From Flavobacteriales bacterium (lineage in GTDB: Bacteria; Bacteroidota; Bacteroidia; Flavobacteriales_F; PHOS-HE28), in assembly GCA_020852835.1 (NCBI GenBank), contig JADZAC010000012.1, positions 1 to 58,498 on the forward strand: a stretch of DNA of 58,498 nt, written 5' to 3'. Positions 42,865 through 58,217 of this stretch are shown one piece after another; positions within the stretch are counted from its first letter, which is position 1, and the number at the start of each line of letters is the position of its first letter. The translations under genes were made by a program, and so were the position numbers. A model generated the notes under the pieces. The model searched no databases and had not been told where the DNA came from. It saw only the letters and a program-made list of their open reading frames with translations.

Positions 42865-42893
42865 CAAATGTAATGAAAACCGCCGGTTATCAA
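42865..42893 (-). promoter_or_regulatory. Bacteroidota-type promoter of prs (TTG-N18-TACATTTG)
   Basis: On the minus strand TTG (42893-42891) is followed after 18 bases by TACATTTG (42872-42865), 31 bp before the prs ATG. This is the best match in the window to the TTTG/TAnnTTTG promoter of Bacteroidota. Confidence 0.65.
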
Positions 42894-42902
42894 CGATCGT
42901 TG
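42891..42902. promoter_or_regulatory. Palindrome CAACGATCGTTG overlapping the prs -33 element
   Basis: A perfect 12-bp dyad whose one half includes the TTG of the -33 element. It lies between divergent prs and rnr. A related sequence, TCAACGATCGTG, occurs in the gap before rpiB (from about 51922). It is a possible operator site; no regulator is identified. Confidence 0.35.
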
Positions 42903-42969
42903 ATGGGATCTTGGGAACCAGCCCGAATTTAATGAACCAACCCCGTAATTCTTTCCACCTTCGCCACCC

Positions 42970-46210: not shown

Positions 46211-46393
46211 ATGCCATCCAAGCGCCTTCTCCTCGCCTTCCTGTTGGCCTTGGCCATCTCCCAGCTATTGGCCGCATTCATTTACCACCGGGTAAAGGTG
46301 CCGCTCTTTGCCTCCGTTGCTATCGGTGTGCTGGTGCCCTTCCTCATGGCATGGGCACAACAACGGAAAAAGAACAAACAGAAAAGCCCCTGA
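46211..46393 (+). CDS. Small two-helix membrane protein
   Basis: The 60-residue protein (MPSKRLLLAFLLALAISQLL...) has two hydrophobic helices (about 5-22 and 28-46) and a strongly basic C-terminus (QQRKKNKQKSP). I do not recognise a family. A promoter-like TAGTTTCG lies just upstream and a hairpin just downstream, so it appears to be an independent transcription unit. Confidence 0.6.
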   Translation: MPSKRLLLAFLLALAISQLLAAFIYHRVKVPLFASVAIGVLVPFLMAWAQQRKKNKQKSP

Positions 46394-46430
46394 GGCCGGG
46401 CCCGGGCTCATCCTCACCCCATGCCCGGCC
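46394..46430. terminator. Hairpin between the small membrane protein and the LytTR regulator gene
   Basis: GGCCGGGC (46394-46401) pairs exactly with GCCCGGCC (46423-46430) around a 21-base loop. It fills the whole space between the two convergent stop codons. Confidence 0.55.
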
Positions 46431-47186
46431 CTACACCAGGTTCAGCCTTTTGGCCAGGTCGTCCTTGTAGCTGCCCCCGATGGGAATGATCTTTTTATCA
46501 TTCTCCAAGATCAGGTTGGTTTGTTCAATGGCCGTGATCTTGTCGATGCGGACAATGAAGGAACGGTGTACGCGCATGAAGTCGCTTTCCGGCAGCTTGG
46601 CCTCAATATCCTTCATGGTGCTGTGGATGGTGTAACGCGTGTTGAGGGTGTTGATCACCACGTAATCCTTCAATGCCTCAATGTAATAAATGTCGCCGGT
46701 GCGCAGCTTCACCATCCGGCTGTTGCTCTTTACGAACAGGATCTCCTTGTTGCCCCCCTGCCCTTCCACCAAGTTGAACAACAGGTCGCGCTCTTTCAGC
46801 ACCTCGGCCTCCTTTTTGTGCTTGTAGAGGGCCATTTCGATCGTGGTGTGAATGTCGATCTCCTTGAACGGCTTGATGATATACCCGTAAGGCTGCGTCA
46901 CTTTGGCCTTGTTCAAGGTGCTTTCATCCGCATAGGCCGTCAGGAAGATCACCGGAATATTGGCTTCCGCCCGGATCCGGGTGGCCGCTTCTATCCCGCT
47001 CATTTCCCCCTTGAGCATGATGTCCATGAGGATGATGTCCGGCTTGTGCTCCAAGGCCAAGGCAACGGCATTCTCGCCGGTGGCAGCTGCCCCTACCACA
47101 TGGTAGCCCAGCTTCTTCAGGCTTTGCTGAATGTCTTTGCTGACGATGCTCTCGTCCTCCACCACCAAAACATTGGTTTGCGCCAT
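46431..47186 (-). CDS. LytTR-family response regulator
   Basis: The 251-residue protein has an N-terminal receiver domain (VLVVEDESIVSKDIQQSL, phosphoacceptor D55 in LMDIMLKG, conserved T and K in FLTAYAD and YIIKPF) and a C-terminal LytTR DNA-binding domain (about 150-245: ILFVKSNSRMVKLRTGDIYYIEALKDYVVI ... FMRVHRSFIVRIDKI). It should bind direct-repeat promoter sites when phosphorylated. It lies nine bases after the kinase gene and is its evident partner. Confidence 0.95.
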   Translation of the reverse strand: MAQTNVLVVEDESIVSKDIQQSLKKLGYHVVGAAATGENAVALALEHKPDIILMDIMLKGEMSGIEAATRIRAEANIPVIFLTAYADESTLNKAKVTQPYGYIIKPFKEIDIHTTIEMALYKHKKEAEVLKERDLLFNLVEGQGGNKEILFVKSNSRMVKLRTGDIYYIEALKDYVVINTLNTRYTIHSTMKDIEAKLPESDFMRVHRSFIVRIDKITAIEQTNLILENDKKIIPIGGSYKDDLAKRLNLV

Positions 47187-47195
47187 GGTCTGTTC

Positions 47196-50100
47196 TCAAC
47201 TACGTTCAAATGTAATCAAATAGCTCGTGCCCGTGGTGCCGGTTCGGCACGTTCGTACGGCATTCCCGTCCAACTGTTGCAGCAGCAGCTCCACGAGCTC
47301 CATCCCGAGCCCGCGATCACGTGCTTCCTCGTATCCACCGGGGAAGCCAACACCATTGTCTTCCAGTGTGATCCGCACAGTATTCCGGTCACCGCGCAAG
47401 GTGATGCCCACCACGCCCTCACGGTCGCCCGGAAAAGCATGTTTCAAGGCATTGCTGATCAACTCGTTCAACACAAGGCCGCAAGGGATGGCCTTGTCCA
47501 GGTCCAACATCAATGGCTCCAATTCGGTGTTCAACTGGACCCTCCCGTACAGGGAGTAGCTCATCACCAAGTTGCTGCATAGCCCCTTGATGTACTGTGC
47601 CAGGTCCACCTGGGCAAAGTTCTTGCTCTGGTACAGGCTCTCATGAATGAAGGCCATGCTGCGGATCCGGTCCTGCGATTCCTGCAACAAGGACATCACC
47701 TTGGGATCGTTGGCCACGTGCCCCCGCTGCAGGCTGAAGATGCTGCTGATGATCTGCAGGTTGTTCTTCACCCGGTGATGCACTTCCTTGAGCAACACTT
47801 CCTTCTCCCGGAGGTTCTCCACCAATTCCTGCTCGCTCAACTTCTTCCCGGTGATGTCATGGGCCATGCAGGTCACCTCATTGATCCGGCCGTTTGCCTG
47901 CACCGGCCCCATGAAAAGCTCCAGCCACATGGCAGGCCCCTGCTTGGCGACGATGCGTACTTCACGGCGTTGCGGCTTGCCAGCGAAACAATCCCGGTAC
48001 AGCTGCAGCCATGCCCCGTCCTCTTCCGGTGAAATGAGGTCCACGAAAGCCTCCCGGATATTGTCCCCTGCACCCAGGTCCAGGCCGTACCGGTGGGATA
48101 TTTGGTTGAAGAACTTGTTGCAGGAAGTGATCCTGAGGTCTTTGTCCACGCTCCACAGCATAACATCCGCACTGTTGTCGAGGATGGCATTGAGCTTGGC
48201 CGATTGTTCTTGGGCAAGCGCCTCCGCCATGCGCTCGGAGGTGATCTCGTGCCCAATGCCGAACACTTCTTCCACATGGCCTTTGATATCCACCACCGGG
48301 CTGAGGTAGATCTCGTTGCAAACCCGGTTGCCCTGGGCATCGGTCAGGTCCGTTTCAAAGCGCACCACCTTTCCCTCGAAGGCCTCCTGGTATTTTTCCC
48401 GCCAGAACGCATGGTAATCGTCCGGTGCAAACAGCTCACGCGGTTTGTGCGGGTCGGTATTGATCTGGGGCGGCTTGCCATGCAGCCGCATGATCATGTC
48501 GTGGTAGCCTTGGTTGAAGCTCGTCAGCGCGATCCTTCGGTCAACGGTCCAGAACATGTGCGCACTGCTTTCGAACAGGGCTTTTTCCTTGGCGAGGTGT
48601 TTGTGCAGCTTTTCCTGTGCGGCATGGCTTTCCGTTATGTCACGGAAAATGCTCCTCGCCAAGACCATGCGTCCATTTTCCTCCCGCACGGTGGAAGAAC
48701 CCTCAAAGAGCTTTATCCGCCCATCACGTGTAATGAACCTGCTTTGCCATGGGGTATTCGTCGACAAGTTCCGTTCACCCGCCAACCAGCTGCGGGCGAT
48801 CTCCTTGGTTTCATCATCCGCAAGCACATCAAACAGGGTGATCCCCGGCAGATCTTTGTCCGTGTAGCCCAGGGTTTTCTTCCAAGCATTGTTGGTGAAC
48901 AGGAACTTGCCCGATGCATCCACGCTGTAGATCAGGTCGTTGGCATTGTCCACAAGGTCCCGGTAACGCTCCTCACTTTCCCGCAAGGCTTCCCGGTCGC
49001 GTTTCGCTTGGGTCACATCACGGCTTACGCCCATGCTGCCCAGCAAATTCCCCTCTTCGTCCATCAACCGGGAGGCCGCCAAAAAACTGGTGAACACCCT
49101 GCCCTCTTTAGTGATGTTCCGCACTTCTCCGGAAAAGGCACCAAACCTCACCAGTTCTTTTTGTACCCTGCTGTGCTCCTCTGCATCTGCATACAAAACG
49201 TTGGAAGGTTTGCCCAACAATTCTTCCGGTTCATACCCGAACTTGATGGAGGCCGCCGGGTTGAACTCCGTGATGATGTTCTTCTGATCAACTGCCACGA
49301 TCATGTCCAAGGAGCTGTCGATCAGGCTTTTGGCAAGCCTCCTGCTCTGCATCAAAGCCTCTTGCGTCCGTCGATGCTCTTCGATCTCCGACCTTAGTTG
49401 CACATTCACCTCCTCGGCCATGGTGGCGCGCATCCGCTGCTCCATCAGGCTGCGCTCAGCCTCTACATCCTGCAGGGTGAGCTGAATGGCGGGCCTGTTC
49501 ATATGCCGGGTAGCACAACCATGCATCAGCACAGGCCTGGGCTCGCCGCCAGGTGCCCCTATCCACTGCCGGACCGCTGGAGGCTTGTCCCCTTGCACCA
49601 CCTTGCTCAACCAAGCCAGCAATCCGGCATGATCTTCTTGGCGCATGCAGGCCAGAAAGTCCATTCCGGCGCCCAATCCACCTCCGGCCAGTGCTTCTGC
49701 TGCGGGATTCGCGTAAACCACCCGGTTGTTTTGCAGTACCACCATGCCATCCCGCAGCTGCTCGGCCAACTGCCGGTAATTATTGGCCAGTGCTCGTTGC
49801 TCCAGTTCGGATTGCCTCAGGGAGGTTATGTCGAAAATTGCACCCTCAATAACCGATGCACGCCCAGGTGATTCCCGCAAGATCACCTTTTCCAACACGT
49901 GCAACGCGCGCCCGCTGCGGTGCTTGAGCAAGATCTCATAATCGTTCAGCCGCTTCTTCTGCAGCAGGTCTTCCAAGTATTGCTGCCTTTCCTGCAGATC
50001 GAAGTAGAGGTTCTCCACCGGCACGGTCATGAGTTCTTCCCGTGAAGAATAGCCCAACAACCGCGCCAGTGCCAGGTTGCAATCCAGCATCCGTCCGGTA

Positions 50101-50228
50101 ACACTGGTGCGGAACAAGCCCAGCAGGTCGCTGCTGAACAGATCATCATACTGGTTCATGCCACCCGATGGCGGAGCTTCCTGCCCCGGCTTTGGTTGCG
50201 GTTGGCGTTGCTTCGGTGTTGCCGGCAT
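47196..50228 (-). CDS. Soluble multi-PAS histidine kinase (HisKA_2/HWE-like type)
   Basis: The protein is about 1010 residues with no membrane helix or signal peptide. I count about six PAS-type units before the kinase core. Clear ones start near FRTSVTGRMLDCNLALARLLGY, SLDMIVAVDQKNIITEFNPAASIKFGY, ANDLIYSVDASGKFLFTNNAWKKTLGY and SADVMLWSVDKDLRITSCNKFFNQI. The dimerisation motif KEVHHRVKNNLQ (first His about residue 817) and the N box NELISNALKHAF, then DNGVGF and GLGMELV, place it in the HisKA_2 group. It may start at ATG 50228 or at a TTG (50240) that overlaps the stop of the MORN gene. It is the middle gene of an operon with the LytTR regulator. Confidence 0.93.
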   Translation of the reverse strand: MPATPKQRQPQPKPGQEAPPSGGMNQYDDLFSSDLLGLFRTSVTGRMLDCNLALARLLGYSSREELMTVPVENLYFDLQERQQYLEDLLQKKRLNDYEILLKHRSGRALHVLEKVILRESPGRASVIEGAIFDITSLRQSELEQRALANNYRQLAEQLRDGMVVLQNNRVVYANPAAEALAGGGLGAGMDFLACMRQEDHAGLLAWLSKVVQGDKPPAVRQWIGAPGGEPRPVLMHGCATRHMNRPAIQLTLQDVEAERSLMEQRMRATMAEEVNVQLRSEIEEHRRTQEALMQSRRLAKSLIDSSLDMIVAVDQKNIITEFNPAASIKFGYEPEELLGKPSNVLYADAEEHSRVQKELVRFGAFSGEVRNITKEGRVFTSFLAASRLMDEEGNLLGSMGVSRDVTQAKRDREALRESEERYRDLVDNANDLIYSVDASGKFLFTNNAWKKTLGYTDKDLPGITLFDVLADDETKEIARSWLAGERNLSTNTPWQSRFITRDGRIKLFEGSSTVREENGRMVLARSIFRDITESHAAQEKLHKHLAKEKALFESSAHMFWTVDRRIALTSFNQGYHDMIMRLHGKPPQINTDPHKPRELFAPDDYHAFWREKYQEAFEGKVVRFETDLTDAQGNRVCNEIYLSPVVDIKGHVEEVFGIGHEITSERMAEALAQEQSAKLNAILDNSADVMLWSVDKDLRITSCNKFFNQISHRYGLDLGAGDNIREAFVDLISPEEDGAWLQLYRDCFAGKPQRREVRIVAKQGPAMWLELFMGPVQANGRINEVTCMAHDITGKKLSEQELVENLREKEVLLKEVHHRVKNNLQIISSIFSLQRGHVANDPKVMSLLQESQDRIRSMAFIHESLYQSKNFAQVDLAQYIKGLCSNLVMSYSLYGRVQLNTELEPLMLDLDKAIPCGLVLNELISNALKHAFPGDREGVVGITLRGDRNTVRITLEDNGVGFPGGYEEARDRGLGMELVELLLQQLDGNAVRTCRTGTTGTSYLITFERS

Positions 50229-50236
50229 AAATCGGT

Positions 50237-51823
50237 TCAAGGGGTAAAGCGGGCGGGTTGATAAGGGGGCGGCAATTTCACTTCATTCAATTTCATTTCG
50301 CTGCCGTCCTTGTAACGGATCGTAAGCTGGATCGTTCCATTTTCATCGAAATGGTTGAAATCACCCTGTTCCAATCCCGCACTGTACCTGCCTTCCAGCT
50401 TCAGCCTCCCATTGGGCCAGTACCACTTGTGCTTGCCGTCGCGCTCCCCCGCCACGAATGATCCTTGAAAGTATTTTTTTCCGTTGTCGTACGTACTGGT
50501 CCATGGACCATCGCGCAGGCCATCCTTGTATGCGCCCTTGTCCGTATGACCGCTGATGTGGTACACCCAATCCCCGTCCTTCAACCCATCGATGAAGTTG
50601 CCTTTCACGATCACCGATCCATCTGGCTCCAATTCCACCGAGGCCCCATCTTCCCGGCCTTTCCGGTAATATTCCTCACGGTGCAATTCTCCCGTTGCAT
50701 AGTACCATTTCCATTCTCCTTGCGGCGATCCATCCCGGTAGGCGCCTTTCTGCTCCACCTCCCCTGTTCGGTGGTAAAAGGTCCATGGCCCTTCTTTTCT
50801 CCCGTTCAGATAAGTTCCTTCAGCGCGTTTTTCACCCGTTGTATAATATTCCGTCCATGTCCCGGTCATTGCTCCTGCTTCACTGATCGGTCCGGAACCT
50901 ACCAATACCGTATTGCGGTAAATGGCGGCATCCGTGGGGCTGCCTTGATCATTGAAGTTTCGGAACAACCCCTCCTTGCCTCCGTTCTTTGCATAGCTGC
51001 CAATGCTGGCTACCACCCCATTGGCATGGTAGGTATTCTTGATCTCCAGCAACATGGTTTCTGCTGCATCGGCCATTAAGCTGTCCTGATCGTATTTGGC
51101 CAGTTCAAGCAGGTTGCCCTGTTTATCGTATTCCTTGAAGATCCCTTGTCTGCGATCATCCACATAGCGGCCTTCCCACTTCAGGCTCCCACTGGGCCAA
51201 TACCCCTGCCACACGCCTTGGCGCAACTGCCTTCCATCATATTGATTGATCGTTTTTCGGCTTTGCAGCACACCTGCACGCCAATTGGAAATGATGATAG
51301 GCCGGCCATCCGAGGCATACTGGTAGGCCTTGCCTTCCTCCTTGCCTGCCTGGTACCTCACCGCAGTTTCCACAATTCCGTCCGTAAAAAAGGTACGGCT
51401 CAACCCTTCCCTCACATCTTGTGAATAGTGCTCCTCAACCAGCAAGGTGCTGTCCGGTCCGTACTTGCGCAACAACCCGTTCTTCTTGCCCTCAACATAA
51501 TCAATGGTGCTGGCCAACGATCCGTCTGCATTGTAAAAATGCCACGTGCCGCTCAATTCAAAATGCAACCGGTCACCCTCGCTCTTGAGCGTTCCATCCG
51601 GATAGTAAGCCCTCCAATGGCCTTCCGGTTTTCCATCCACGACGTAGCCTTCACTGCTGACCTGTCCATCGGTATAAAAGTACTGTTGCGGTACGGCCCC
51701 GACCTGTGCCCACAATTGGCCACCGCACACACACAGTATCATCAGTACTTCTTTTAAAAGAAGCTGATGGTATAGTATAGTCTGTTGATAGTGTTGATCA
51801 CCGTTGCGGGTCGGAAGGGACAT
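50237..51823 (-). CDS. Exported MORN/YwqK-repeat protein
   Basis: The 528-residue protein carries an export signal (LLLKEVLMILCVCGGQLWAQ) after a polar lead, then at least twelve YwqK/MORN-type units of about 23 residues. Typical units are GYVVDGKPEGHWRAYYPDG, GTYLNGRKEGPWTFYHRTG and GAYKDGLRDGPWTSTYDNG. MORN-like repeats form extended beta hairpins that bind proteins or lipids. The ATG at 51823 is chosen over an upstream TTG. The stop falls nine bases before the kinase ATG and overlaps its alternative TTG, so the repeat protein and the kinase are translationally linked. GC content appears lower than in neighbouring core genes. Confidence 0.85.
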   Translation of the reverse strand: MSLPTRNGDQHYQQTILYHQLLLKEVLMILCVCGGQLWAQVGAVPQQYFYTDGQVSSEGYVVDGKPEGHWRAYYPDGTLKSEGDRLHFELSGTWHFYNADGSLASTIDYVEGKKNGLLRKYGPDSTLLVEEHYSQDVREGLSRTFFTDGIVETAVRYQAGKEEGKAYQYASDGRPIIISNWRAGVLQSRKTINQYDGRQLRQGVWQGYWPSGSLKWEGRYVDDRRQGIFKEYDKQGNLLELAKYDQDSLMADAAETMLLEIKNTYHANGVVASIGSYAKNGGKEGLFRNFNDQGSPTDAAIYRNTVLVGSGPISEAGAMTGTWTEYYTTGEKRAEGTYLNGRKEGPWTFYHRTGEVEQKGAYRDGSPQGEWKWYYATGELHREEYYRKGREDGASVELEPDGSVIVKGNFIDGLKDGDWVYHISGHTDKGAYKDGLRDGPWTSTYDNGKKYFQGSFVAGERDGKHKWYWPNGRLKLEGRYSAGLEQGDFNHFDENGTIQLTIRYKDGSEMKLNEVKLPPPYQPARFTP

Positions 51824-52155
51824 TTCGGGATGCGGCAAGTATTCAACAGCGTATCAACGGAACGCGGAACGACCTCTTGTACAAGCCAGCGTGAAGATAC
51901 GGGCCATCTGCAGGTATTGGATCAACGATCGTGCAAAAGTGGGACCAAGTTGATCGTGGATGGTGGGAAGGCACCGGGAAGCAATTGTCGATCGTTCAAT
52001 CCTTGTGGGGAACAATTGAAGGCTGGTGGTTGCTTTCCCGGAAGATCCCGTTATGCAGGCAAGCACGTTATCAGCCGCTGAAAAACCTTGGAAAGTTCTT
52101 CACGGGATAACTCGCTTATCAACAAGTTCCATGTTCGATCGCTGTACAGGGCTGC
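51824..52155. other. AT-richer intergenic region between the MORN operon and rpiB
   Basis: About 330 bases between two divergent genes hold no ORF I can support. They contain small dyads (TTCAAT...ATTGAA around 51995-52020), two CGATCG-centred motifs (TCAACGATCGTG near 51922 and TCGATCGTTCA near 51988), and TTATCAACA near 52117, one mismatch from a DnaA box. These are probably promoter and operator sequence for both directions. Confidence 0.5.
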
Positions 52156-52163
52156 TATCTTTG
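52156..52163 (+). promoter_or_regulatory. Putative -7 box of rpiB (TATCTTTG)
   Basis: A perfect TAnnTTTG match ending four bases before the rpiB ATG, again implying a very short leader. Confidence 0.5.
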
Positions 52164-52167
52164 GGGC

Positions 52168-52596
52168 ATGCGCATAGCTATTGGTAGTGACCATGCGGGT
52201 TTCCAGCTGAAGGAACATTTGATGGCCTTCCTTGGGGCCAAAGACATCCAAGTCTTGGATGTGGGCACCCTAAGTGAGGAAAGCACGGACTATCCGCAAT
52301 ACGCGCATGCCGTAGCCCTTGCCGTGGTGGACGGGTCGGTGGATCTGGGCGTGGTGATCTGCGGCAGTGGAAATGGGGTGAACATCACGGCCAATAGGCA
52401 CAGCGGTATCCGGTCGGCCCTGGCCTGGTTGCCCGAAGTGGCGGCCTTGGCACGCCAGCATAATGACGCCAATGTGTTGGCCTTGCCTGCGAGGTACTTG
52501 GACAACAAGGAAGCAGAAACCATTCTGAAGGCCTTCTTGGACGCACGGTTCGAGGGCGGAAGGCACCAGCGCCGTGTTGCGGCGATAGAATGTTAG
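52168..52596 (+). CDS. rpiB: Ribose-5-phosphate isomerase B
   Basis: RpiB interconverts ribose 5-phosphate and ribulose 5-phosphate. The 142-residue protein has the opening MRIAIGSDHAGFQLKEHL (D8, H9), the DYPQYAH block (about 41-47) and the catalytic cysteine C65 in VICGSGNGVNI. Length and motifs are standard. An ATG at 52590 for the next frame overlaps its 3' end, but the following gene probably starts at 52620. Confidence 0.95.
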   Translation: MRIAIGSDHAGFQLKEHLMAFLGAKDIQVLDVGTLSEESTDYPQYAHAVALAVVDGSVDLGVVICGSGNGVNITANRHSGIRSALAWLPEVAALARQHNDANVLALPARYLDNKEAETILKAFLDARFEGGRHQRRVAAIEC

Positions 52597-58201: not shown

Positions 58202-58217
58202 TGTTCCACGTGGAACG
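58202..58217. promoter_or_regulatory. parS-like ParB-binding site
   Basis: TGTTCCACGTGGAACG contains the perfect 14-bp palindrome GTTCCACGTGGAAC and matches the parS sequence TGTTCCACGTGGAACA in 15 of 16 positions. It lies in the 28-bp gap between mnmG and the methyltransferase. mnmG (gidA) is near the replication origin in many bacteria, and ParB sites cluster there. I found no second good copy of this dyad in the window. Confidence 0.7.

Follow-up and report, generated by a model that had tools for sequence, protein, structure and literature searches.

A conserved operon of a MORN-repeat protein, a PAS/HisKA_2 kinase and a LytTR regulator beside the putative chromosome origin of a Flavobacteriales bacterium

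The cassette and its products

Three genes lie head to tail on the minus strand of the window, the term used here for the whole stretch of 58,498 nucleotides that was analysed (contig JADZAC010000012.1). They code for a MORN_2 repeat protein, a PAS/HisKA_2 kinase and a REC-LytTR regulator.

50237 to 51823, minus strand: MORN_2 repeat protein, 528 residues from ATG 51823 or 501 residues from ATG 51742, predicted to be exported
47196 to 50228, minus strand: multi-PAS HisKA_2 histidine kinase of 1010 residues, assigned by Pfam, soluble by the lack of a transmembrane stretch, H-box at 815
46431 to 47186, minus strand: REC-LytTR response regulator of 251 residues, assigned by Pfam
46384 to 46403, minus strand: possible terminator 3′ of the regulator gene, of a kind not above chance there

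The MORN stop codon (TGA, 50239-50237) overlaps a TTG (50240-50238), and eight bases separate it from the kinase ATG at 50228. The kinase gene ends at 47196 and nine bases lie between it and the regulator ATG at 47186. The first-pass annotation of this DNA had described these gaps and the TTG overlap correctly, and doubt concerns the MORN start alone. An internal promoter and terminator were named in that annotation as a reason to give up tight coupling of the genes; terminator-like sites were no commoner than chance, with 6 found against 7.2 expected. The promoter scan run beside the terminator scan was of a type unfit for Bacteroidota. The neighbouring genes were recognised by Pfam (RpiB and an esterase) or by eye (rnr and an M28 peptidase). 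At most genus loci, rpiB and the M28 gene (by eye) are divergent upstream and rnr (by eye) lies downstream.

The repeat protein matches Pfam MORN_2 (PF07661) with an E-value of 4e-37 and 122 bits, against a gathering cut-off of 29.6. Two start codons are candidates. The closest relatives keep the frame from ATG 51823 open, and translation from there would begin with a signal peptide that contains a lysine; the initial methionine of more distant genus members aligns with 51742. Export of the protein is predicted from hydrophobicity. In 50 of 53 relatives, a 12-residue stretch with a mean above 1.8 precedes the first MORN repeat; the best 12-residue mean of the window protein with the 51742 start is only 1.65. 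The number of repeats, which the annotation had suggested comparing among relatives, is nearly constant rather than variable, since the MORN core measures 468-488 residues in 51 of 53 measurable relatives and 523-525 residues in the other two. An AlphaFold2 model made with 41 aligned sequences (pLDDT 91) shows a beta rod of 39 strands, the overall curvature of which is uncertain because of a pTM of 0.54. The closest structures with a meaningful match are crystals of MORN1, at TM-scores of 0.54-0.60 by target length; Rhs and teneurin structures rank higher, yet their TM-scores are below 0.2. A YwqK-type antitoxin would presumably have a partner toxin gene alongside, and no toxin-like gene was found among the kinase, regulator, RpiB, esterase, rnr and M28 genes.

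In the window kinase, Pfam recognises several PAS domains, HisKA_2 (PF07568, 1e-26) and HATPase. The protein thus has the dimerisation domain with the phospho-accepting histidine and the HATPase of the HisKA_2 class, and its H-box reads EVHHRVKNNLQ. It looks soluble because no 19-residue stretch exceeds a mean Kyte-Doolittle value of 1.2, in agreement with the earlier description of a kinase that lacks a membrane segment. The regulator consists of Response_reg and LytTR (PF04397) domains, both above Pfam cut-offs, and the receiver aspartate Asp55 is present.

Conservation of the three-gene order, suggested as a check in the first-pass annotation, was examined in 36 genomes of the genus (the own genome, 22 relatives and 13 further ones). 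The three genes occur in order on one contig in 33 of the 36, counting G015, where the regulator gene runs off the contig end, and MORN is present in 35. The kinase is missing in G019, where MORN and regulator adjoin; in G048 the regulator is on a separate contig; G005 carries the cassette twice, on separate contigs. Within the genus, the regulator is 85-98% identical to its window counterpart, the kinase 48-79% and MORN 48-77%. One genome of the same genus, G045 (95% complete), lacks all three genes as well as the leader element described below, possibly through an assembly gap at the origin.

The rpiB-MORN gap

The intergenic region upstream of the cassette, together with the leader of the MORN gene, carries several features, and a parS site lies further off.

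51743 to 52167, no strand assigned: rpiB-MORN gap, putative oriC by skew, DnaA boxes, parS and leader element
51747 to 51800, minus strand: conserved leader element (model R1), a putative unwinding element, which contains the skew minimum at 51751
51782 to 51797, minus strand: two tandem DnaA-like boxes of period 9 within the leader element
51834 to 51841, minus strand: position of a TAnnTTTG promoter-like box, degenerate in the window (TACTTGCC)
51921 to 51935, minus strand: inverted pair of DnaA-like boxes with the core ACGATCGT, which 19 of 21 genus loci carry in this gap
51987 to 52000, minus strand: further half-site copy of the ACGATCGT motif, near rpiB
52116 to 52124, plus strand: strict DnaA box TTATCAACA
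58204 to 58215: parS consensus TTCCACGTGGAA, the first in a group of three at 6-8 kb from the putative origin

LytTR regulators bind 9-bp direct repeats about 12 bp apart. Autoregulation of the operon through such repeats upstream of 51823, which the first-pass annotation had entertained, was not borne out: no repeat pair was found to be position-conserved across the window and 20 genus loci. LytTR-like repeat pairs matched twice in the window gap, a count reached by 2.3% of 300 mono-nucleotide shuffles, and 14 times in the 20 loci against 6.6 expected. Since no LytTR operator was found, autoregulation is unproven; the regulator may have its targets at other places. The conserved sites of the gap resemble DnaA boxes and parts of an origin rather than LytTR sites.

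Two candidate operators were rejected. The palindrome ACGATCGT was favoured at first as a LytTR operator, the strict pattern (TSMACGATCGTKSAT) being rare, with two places genome-wide. This reading was dropped because the motif also stands between rnr and prs and reads as inverted DnaA boxes, and because its core occurs in 0 of 51 upstream regions outside the genus; it was seen in one of ten same-class loci (L050). The leader element was ruled out as a LytTR operator by its presence above MORN or nadA where no pair adjoins (L049, L051 and L055).

Further copies of the palindrome were noted. The one at 42889-42904, between genes named rnr and prs by eye, is a perfect palindrome of inverted DnaA-like boxes; its core is found at that place in 13 of 21 genus loci, and in G013 it lies beside rnr-prs on another contig (L081). 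At L063, near 1501 (G004 C2:305391), the motif stands just 5′ of a porP/sprF-like gene that is followed by a gldK-like gene (by eye). With one mismatch allowed, the palindrome occurs at 9-32 places per genome, among the matches listed, against 0-4 for the backward control, which contains CTAG, a word that may be depleted, and no inference is drawn from this excess. Canonical parS was treated separately from the palindrome.

The cumulative GC skew of the window reaches its minimum at 51751 and then rises, with only 6.7 kb of the window beyond that point. Of 20 genus loci, 18 have a local minimum no further than about 120 bp from the nominal MORN start, the exceptions being L037 (532 bp off) and L038 (elsewhere). 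Among same-class loci it is near the first gene of the row in only 5 of 10: it lies within 161 bp of MORN in L050, L051 and L052 and about 120 bp or less from the nadA-like gene in L046 and L047, while the distance is about 1 kb in L048 and the minimum is elsewhere in L049, L053, L054 and L055. In G010, a single contig of 3.9 Mb, the skew taken from 20 sampled stretches is negative from 1.0 to 2.98 Mb, except for a wrong-sign stretch at 2.8 Mb, and positive or near zero from 3.01 Mb round to 0.8 Mb, with a local minimum at 3004121. The gap thus coincides with a switch point of the GC skew. The gene dnaA is distant from this point in G010, at 1.53 Mb as compared to 3.00 Mb.

DnaA-type boxes cluster in the gap. 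Over 21 loci, 27 boxes were counted in 11.8 kb of gap sequence and 37 in 435 kb elsewhere, which corresponds to 2.29 and 0.085 per kb and to an enrichment of about 27-fold; the window gap holds one strict box and 5 of the 21 gaps none. The parS consensus was searched for as well. In the genome of the window (G000), it occurs at four places, 58204, 58612, 60124 and 118840, all on this contig, and three of them lie 6-8 kb from the leader element. The consensus is also found near the origin in G004, G010 and G022, with further copies elsewhere in G004. Judged on these sequence features together, the rpiB-MORN gap, where the operon starts, is most likely the chromosome origin in this genome.

In all 14 genus genomes scanned, model R1 placed the leader element at the MORN operon; G016 gave a second, weak match besides. 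Because only 150 of the 1213-2092 first-look candidates were scored per genome, weaker copies may be missed. The matrix with which the leader element was sought in loci such as L049, L051 and L055 was made from 13 of 14 seeds, taken from the loci on which it was tested, and seed rows therefore match it by construction. Outside the genus, R1 gave weak matches, and among the better ones only that of G026 is at a MORN gene. In L050, L053 and L054, as well as in rows away from rpiB, leader-element matches showed no excess over 40 mono-nucleotide shuffles. No Rfam family matched the leader region (51500-52300) up to E 1. In this lineage, the MORN leader, or the first codons of the gene, would form the putative DnaA-binding and unwinding element of the origin.

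In two papers (PMC8287927, PMC6669920), the basal unwinding system of bacterial oriC is described as tandem DnaA boxes with DnaA-trios. A search for tandem boxes with at least three contiguous trios, allowing three mismatches where the published rule allows two, found the arrangement in the gap of 3 of 21 genus loci; the window gap had no match and there were two elsewhere. This search was non-specific, with 0-3 matches elsewhere per genus locus and 0-11 in outgroups. Outgroup leader elements that matched are those of L046, L047, L048, L049, L051 and L052.

The promoter-like box lies about 35 bp upstream of the leader element. Its consensus is TAnnTTTG, and 21 of the 23 genus rows aligned keep it undamaged. 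As the conserved box points through the leader element, transcription of the operon could pass through the unwinding element, and the circuit might in this way tune the initiation of replication. The leader element marking the operon in every genus genome scanned and the high identity of the regulator within the genus are consistent with such a role. We nevertheless regard it as improbable: the box is degenerate in the window itself, one clade has the cassette at a place other than beside rpiB, and in other rows the leader element stands without the pair.

Conservation beyond the genus

A full MORN orthologue was found in 10 of 16 same-class genomes (E 4e-91 or better). A kinase gene and the regulator orthologue directly follow it in six of the ten (G025, G028, G030, G032, G033 and G036); four of these six kinases were checked with Pfam, those of G033 and G036 being assigned by similarity to the window kinase only. 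The pair is absent beside the MORN orthologue in the other four (G024, G026, G029 and G034).

A wider survey by regulator alignment took in the best 80 out of at least 506 loci. A kinase and upstream DNA are visible at 67 of these, and at 60 of the 67 MORN comes before the kinase; the 60 include L192, which has an extra kinase between the two. A full kinase without MORN was found at 7 of the 80 loci, L117 lacks a proper kinase, a regulator without a kinase stands at L153, L163 and L167, and nine loci are cut by contig ends. Spacing is tight: the gap between kinase and regulator is at most 20 nt in 71 of 73 loci, and in 56 of 59 (L192 excluded) the open frame of the kinase, taken between stop codons, begins no more than 50 nt from the end of MORN. 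Uncut kinases range from 476 to 1702 residues. The H-box pattern matched in 71 of 73 surveyed kinases and the N-box pattern, probably too narrow, in only 20 of 73. The coupling of MORN, kinase and regulator genes noticed in the first-pass annotation is therefore a conserved trait of the cassette. Kinase-regulator pairs consistently lacking the MORN gene, which that annotation had named as contrary evidence, were not what the informative loci showed; of its proposals, the link of the envelope repeat protein with the pair is upheld and that of autoregulation is not.

Other arrangements were noted alongside. At seven loci of Crocinitomicaceae type (L144, L145, L156, L168, L172, L191 and L195), the pair lies beside rpiB and MORN is absent. 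Loci from other families have a gene that looks by eye like nadA, either directly before MORN (L046, L047, L048 and L054) or one gene further away (L055). In Cryomorpha ignava, a cultured relative, the cassette adjoins rpiB (L143), and no leader element was recognised at that locus.

MORN and the pair are thus separable, in four of ten same-class genomes and in one Crocinitomicaceae-type clade with seven informative loci, which counts against the operon as a unit. In a second explanation, MORN has long stood beside the origin and the pair settled downstream of it, so that a transcript is shared and a function is not. The four genomes that keep MORN with no pair beside it fit this explanation. 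So does nadA (by eye), which runs in the same direction as MORN in other families and sometimes overlaps it, and which indicates that other genes join the row too. A tendency for gene order to be preserved around origins is a further point in its favour. The behaviour of the cassette away from the origin speaks differently. In a regulator tree of 81 rows, made by a quick method and with 38 of 77 inner branches under 80, one clade of 20 rows (SH-aLRT 95) has no member adjoining rpiB, and the scanned rows of this clade gave no recognisable leader element. MORN still precedes the kinase in 15 of these 20 rows; of the other five, 3 lack a kinase and 2 are cut. The order is thus kept away from rpiB, which argues against a mere passenger of the origin, as do the gaps that are short almost everywhere. 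We hold the passenger explanation to be possible, and clearly less probable than a functional operon.

The surroundings of the cassette at some loci hint at an envelope with type IX secretion, a context that does not prove function. Two genes upstream of MORN, L132 has PorP/SprF (PF11751, above cut-off), a type IX secretion family, and the other upstream gene there has OmpA and TPR matches below Pfam's cut-offs. A PKD/CHU_C protein is encoded further upstream in L134 and L141, and about five more rows (L126, L133, L135, L136 and L139) have a similar gene pair, judged by size only.

The kinases of the seven Crocinitomicaceae-type loci carry N-terminal hydrophobic segments, 5-6 each and 2 in L191. 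Such kinases are found at 7 of 7 informative loci without MORN as compared to 7 of 60 with it. This distribution would suit a circuit in which exported MORN senses the envelope and signals to the soluble kinase through a membrane partner, kinases that lack MORN having a membrane sensor of their own. We give this idea little credence. The absence of MORN needs only two changes on the tree, one of which is the doubtful row L117, an independent-pairs test is powerless here, seven loci combine MORN with a multi-TM kinase, and no gene for a membrane partner was noticed in passing. A link between loss of MORN and membrane kinases was accordingly set aside, the independent events being too few.

A proposed envelope response and its relation to known systems

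Gene order, domain composition, conservation and the signs of an origin are results of computation. The arrangement is most likely an operon for an envelope protein and a two-component system placed at oriC. We consider it probable, with room for doubt, that this conserved operon of an exported MORN_2 beta rod, a cytoplasmic PAS/HisKA_2 kinase and a LytTR regulator serves an envelope response. The operon is oriented away from the probable chromosome origin. The PAS domains may read an internal cue, upon which the kinase would phosphorylate Asp55 of the regulator; the regulator would then control envelope genes, and the MORN rod, as a further product of this transcript, would be the envelope part of the response. 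It is a long shot that the same PAS-sensing system, with a transcript from or through the unwinding element, also tunes initiation while its first product adjusts the envelope, thereby coupling surface state to replication.

Literature searches, with subscription papers largely outside their reach, returned no paper on a MORN-kinase-LytTR operon or on an rpiB-MORN position of the origin. The analysis names a conserved envelope and two-component cassette in largely uncultured Bacteroidota and gives a precise, testable position for the origin, which in the one-contig relative is far from dnaA. An origin finder that relies on dnaA would fail in this lineage. If transcription of the operon did affect unwinding, signalling and replication would be directly linked.

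The window regulator has the REC and LytTR domains of LytTR-family response regulators and departs from the typical case in its pairing with a PAS/HisKA_2 kinase and in that no direct-repeat operator was found. Its best NCBIfam match is to the receiver part of PhyR (residues 2-125), an anti-anti-sigma regulator. An identity as PhyR was rejected, as the match reaches 111 bits against a cut-off of 240 and the output domain is LytTR. The kinase shares HisKA_2 and HATPase with a conserved histidine with HisKA_2/HWE kinases of the PhyK type (its match to the PhyK model has an E-value of 3e-40 and 138 bits, short of the cut-off of 750), and differs from them in its several PAS domains, its solubility and its operon with LytTR and MORN genes.

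The MORN protein resembles the eukaryotic MORN1 crystals (6t69, 6t4d, 6t6q, 6t4r and 6t68) in its beta-rod fold; those structures comprise about 200 residues, against 501 for the window protein, and are not exported bacterial proteins. It has repeats in common with the LIC20035-family adhesin (NF033566), an exported MORN_2 protein, with a partial match of E 1.6e-32; it scores 113 bits, below the cut-off of 250, and is set apart by its length of 501-528 residues and its link to a kinase operon. As for the origin, the window departs from the basal unwinding system described in PMC8287927 and PMC6669920 in lacking the trio arrangement even with an extra mismatch and in that dnaA is far away, as seen in G010; it is like that system in that, at the skew minimum, tandem DnaA-like boxes adjoin a trio-like stretch.
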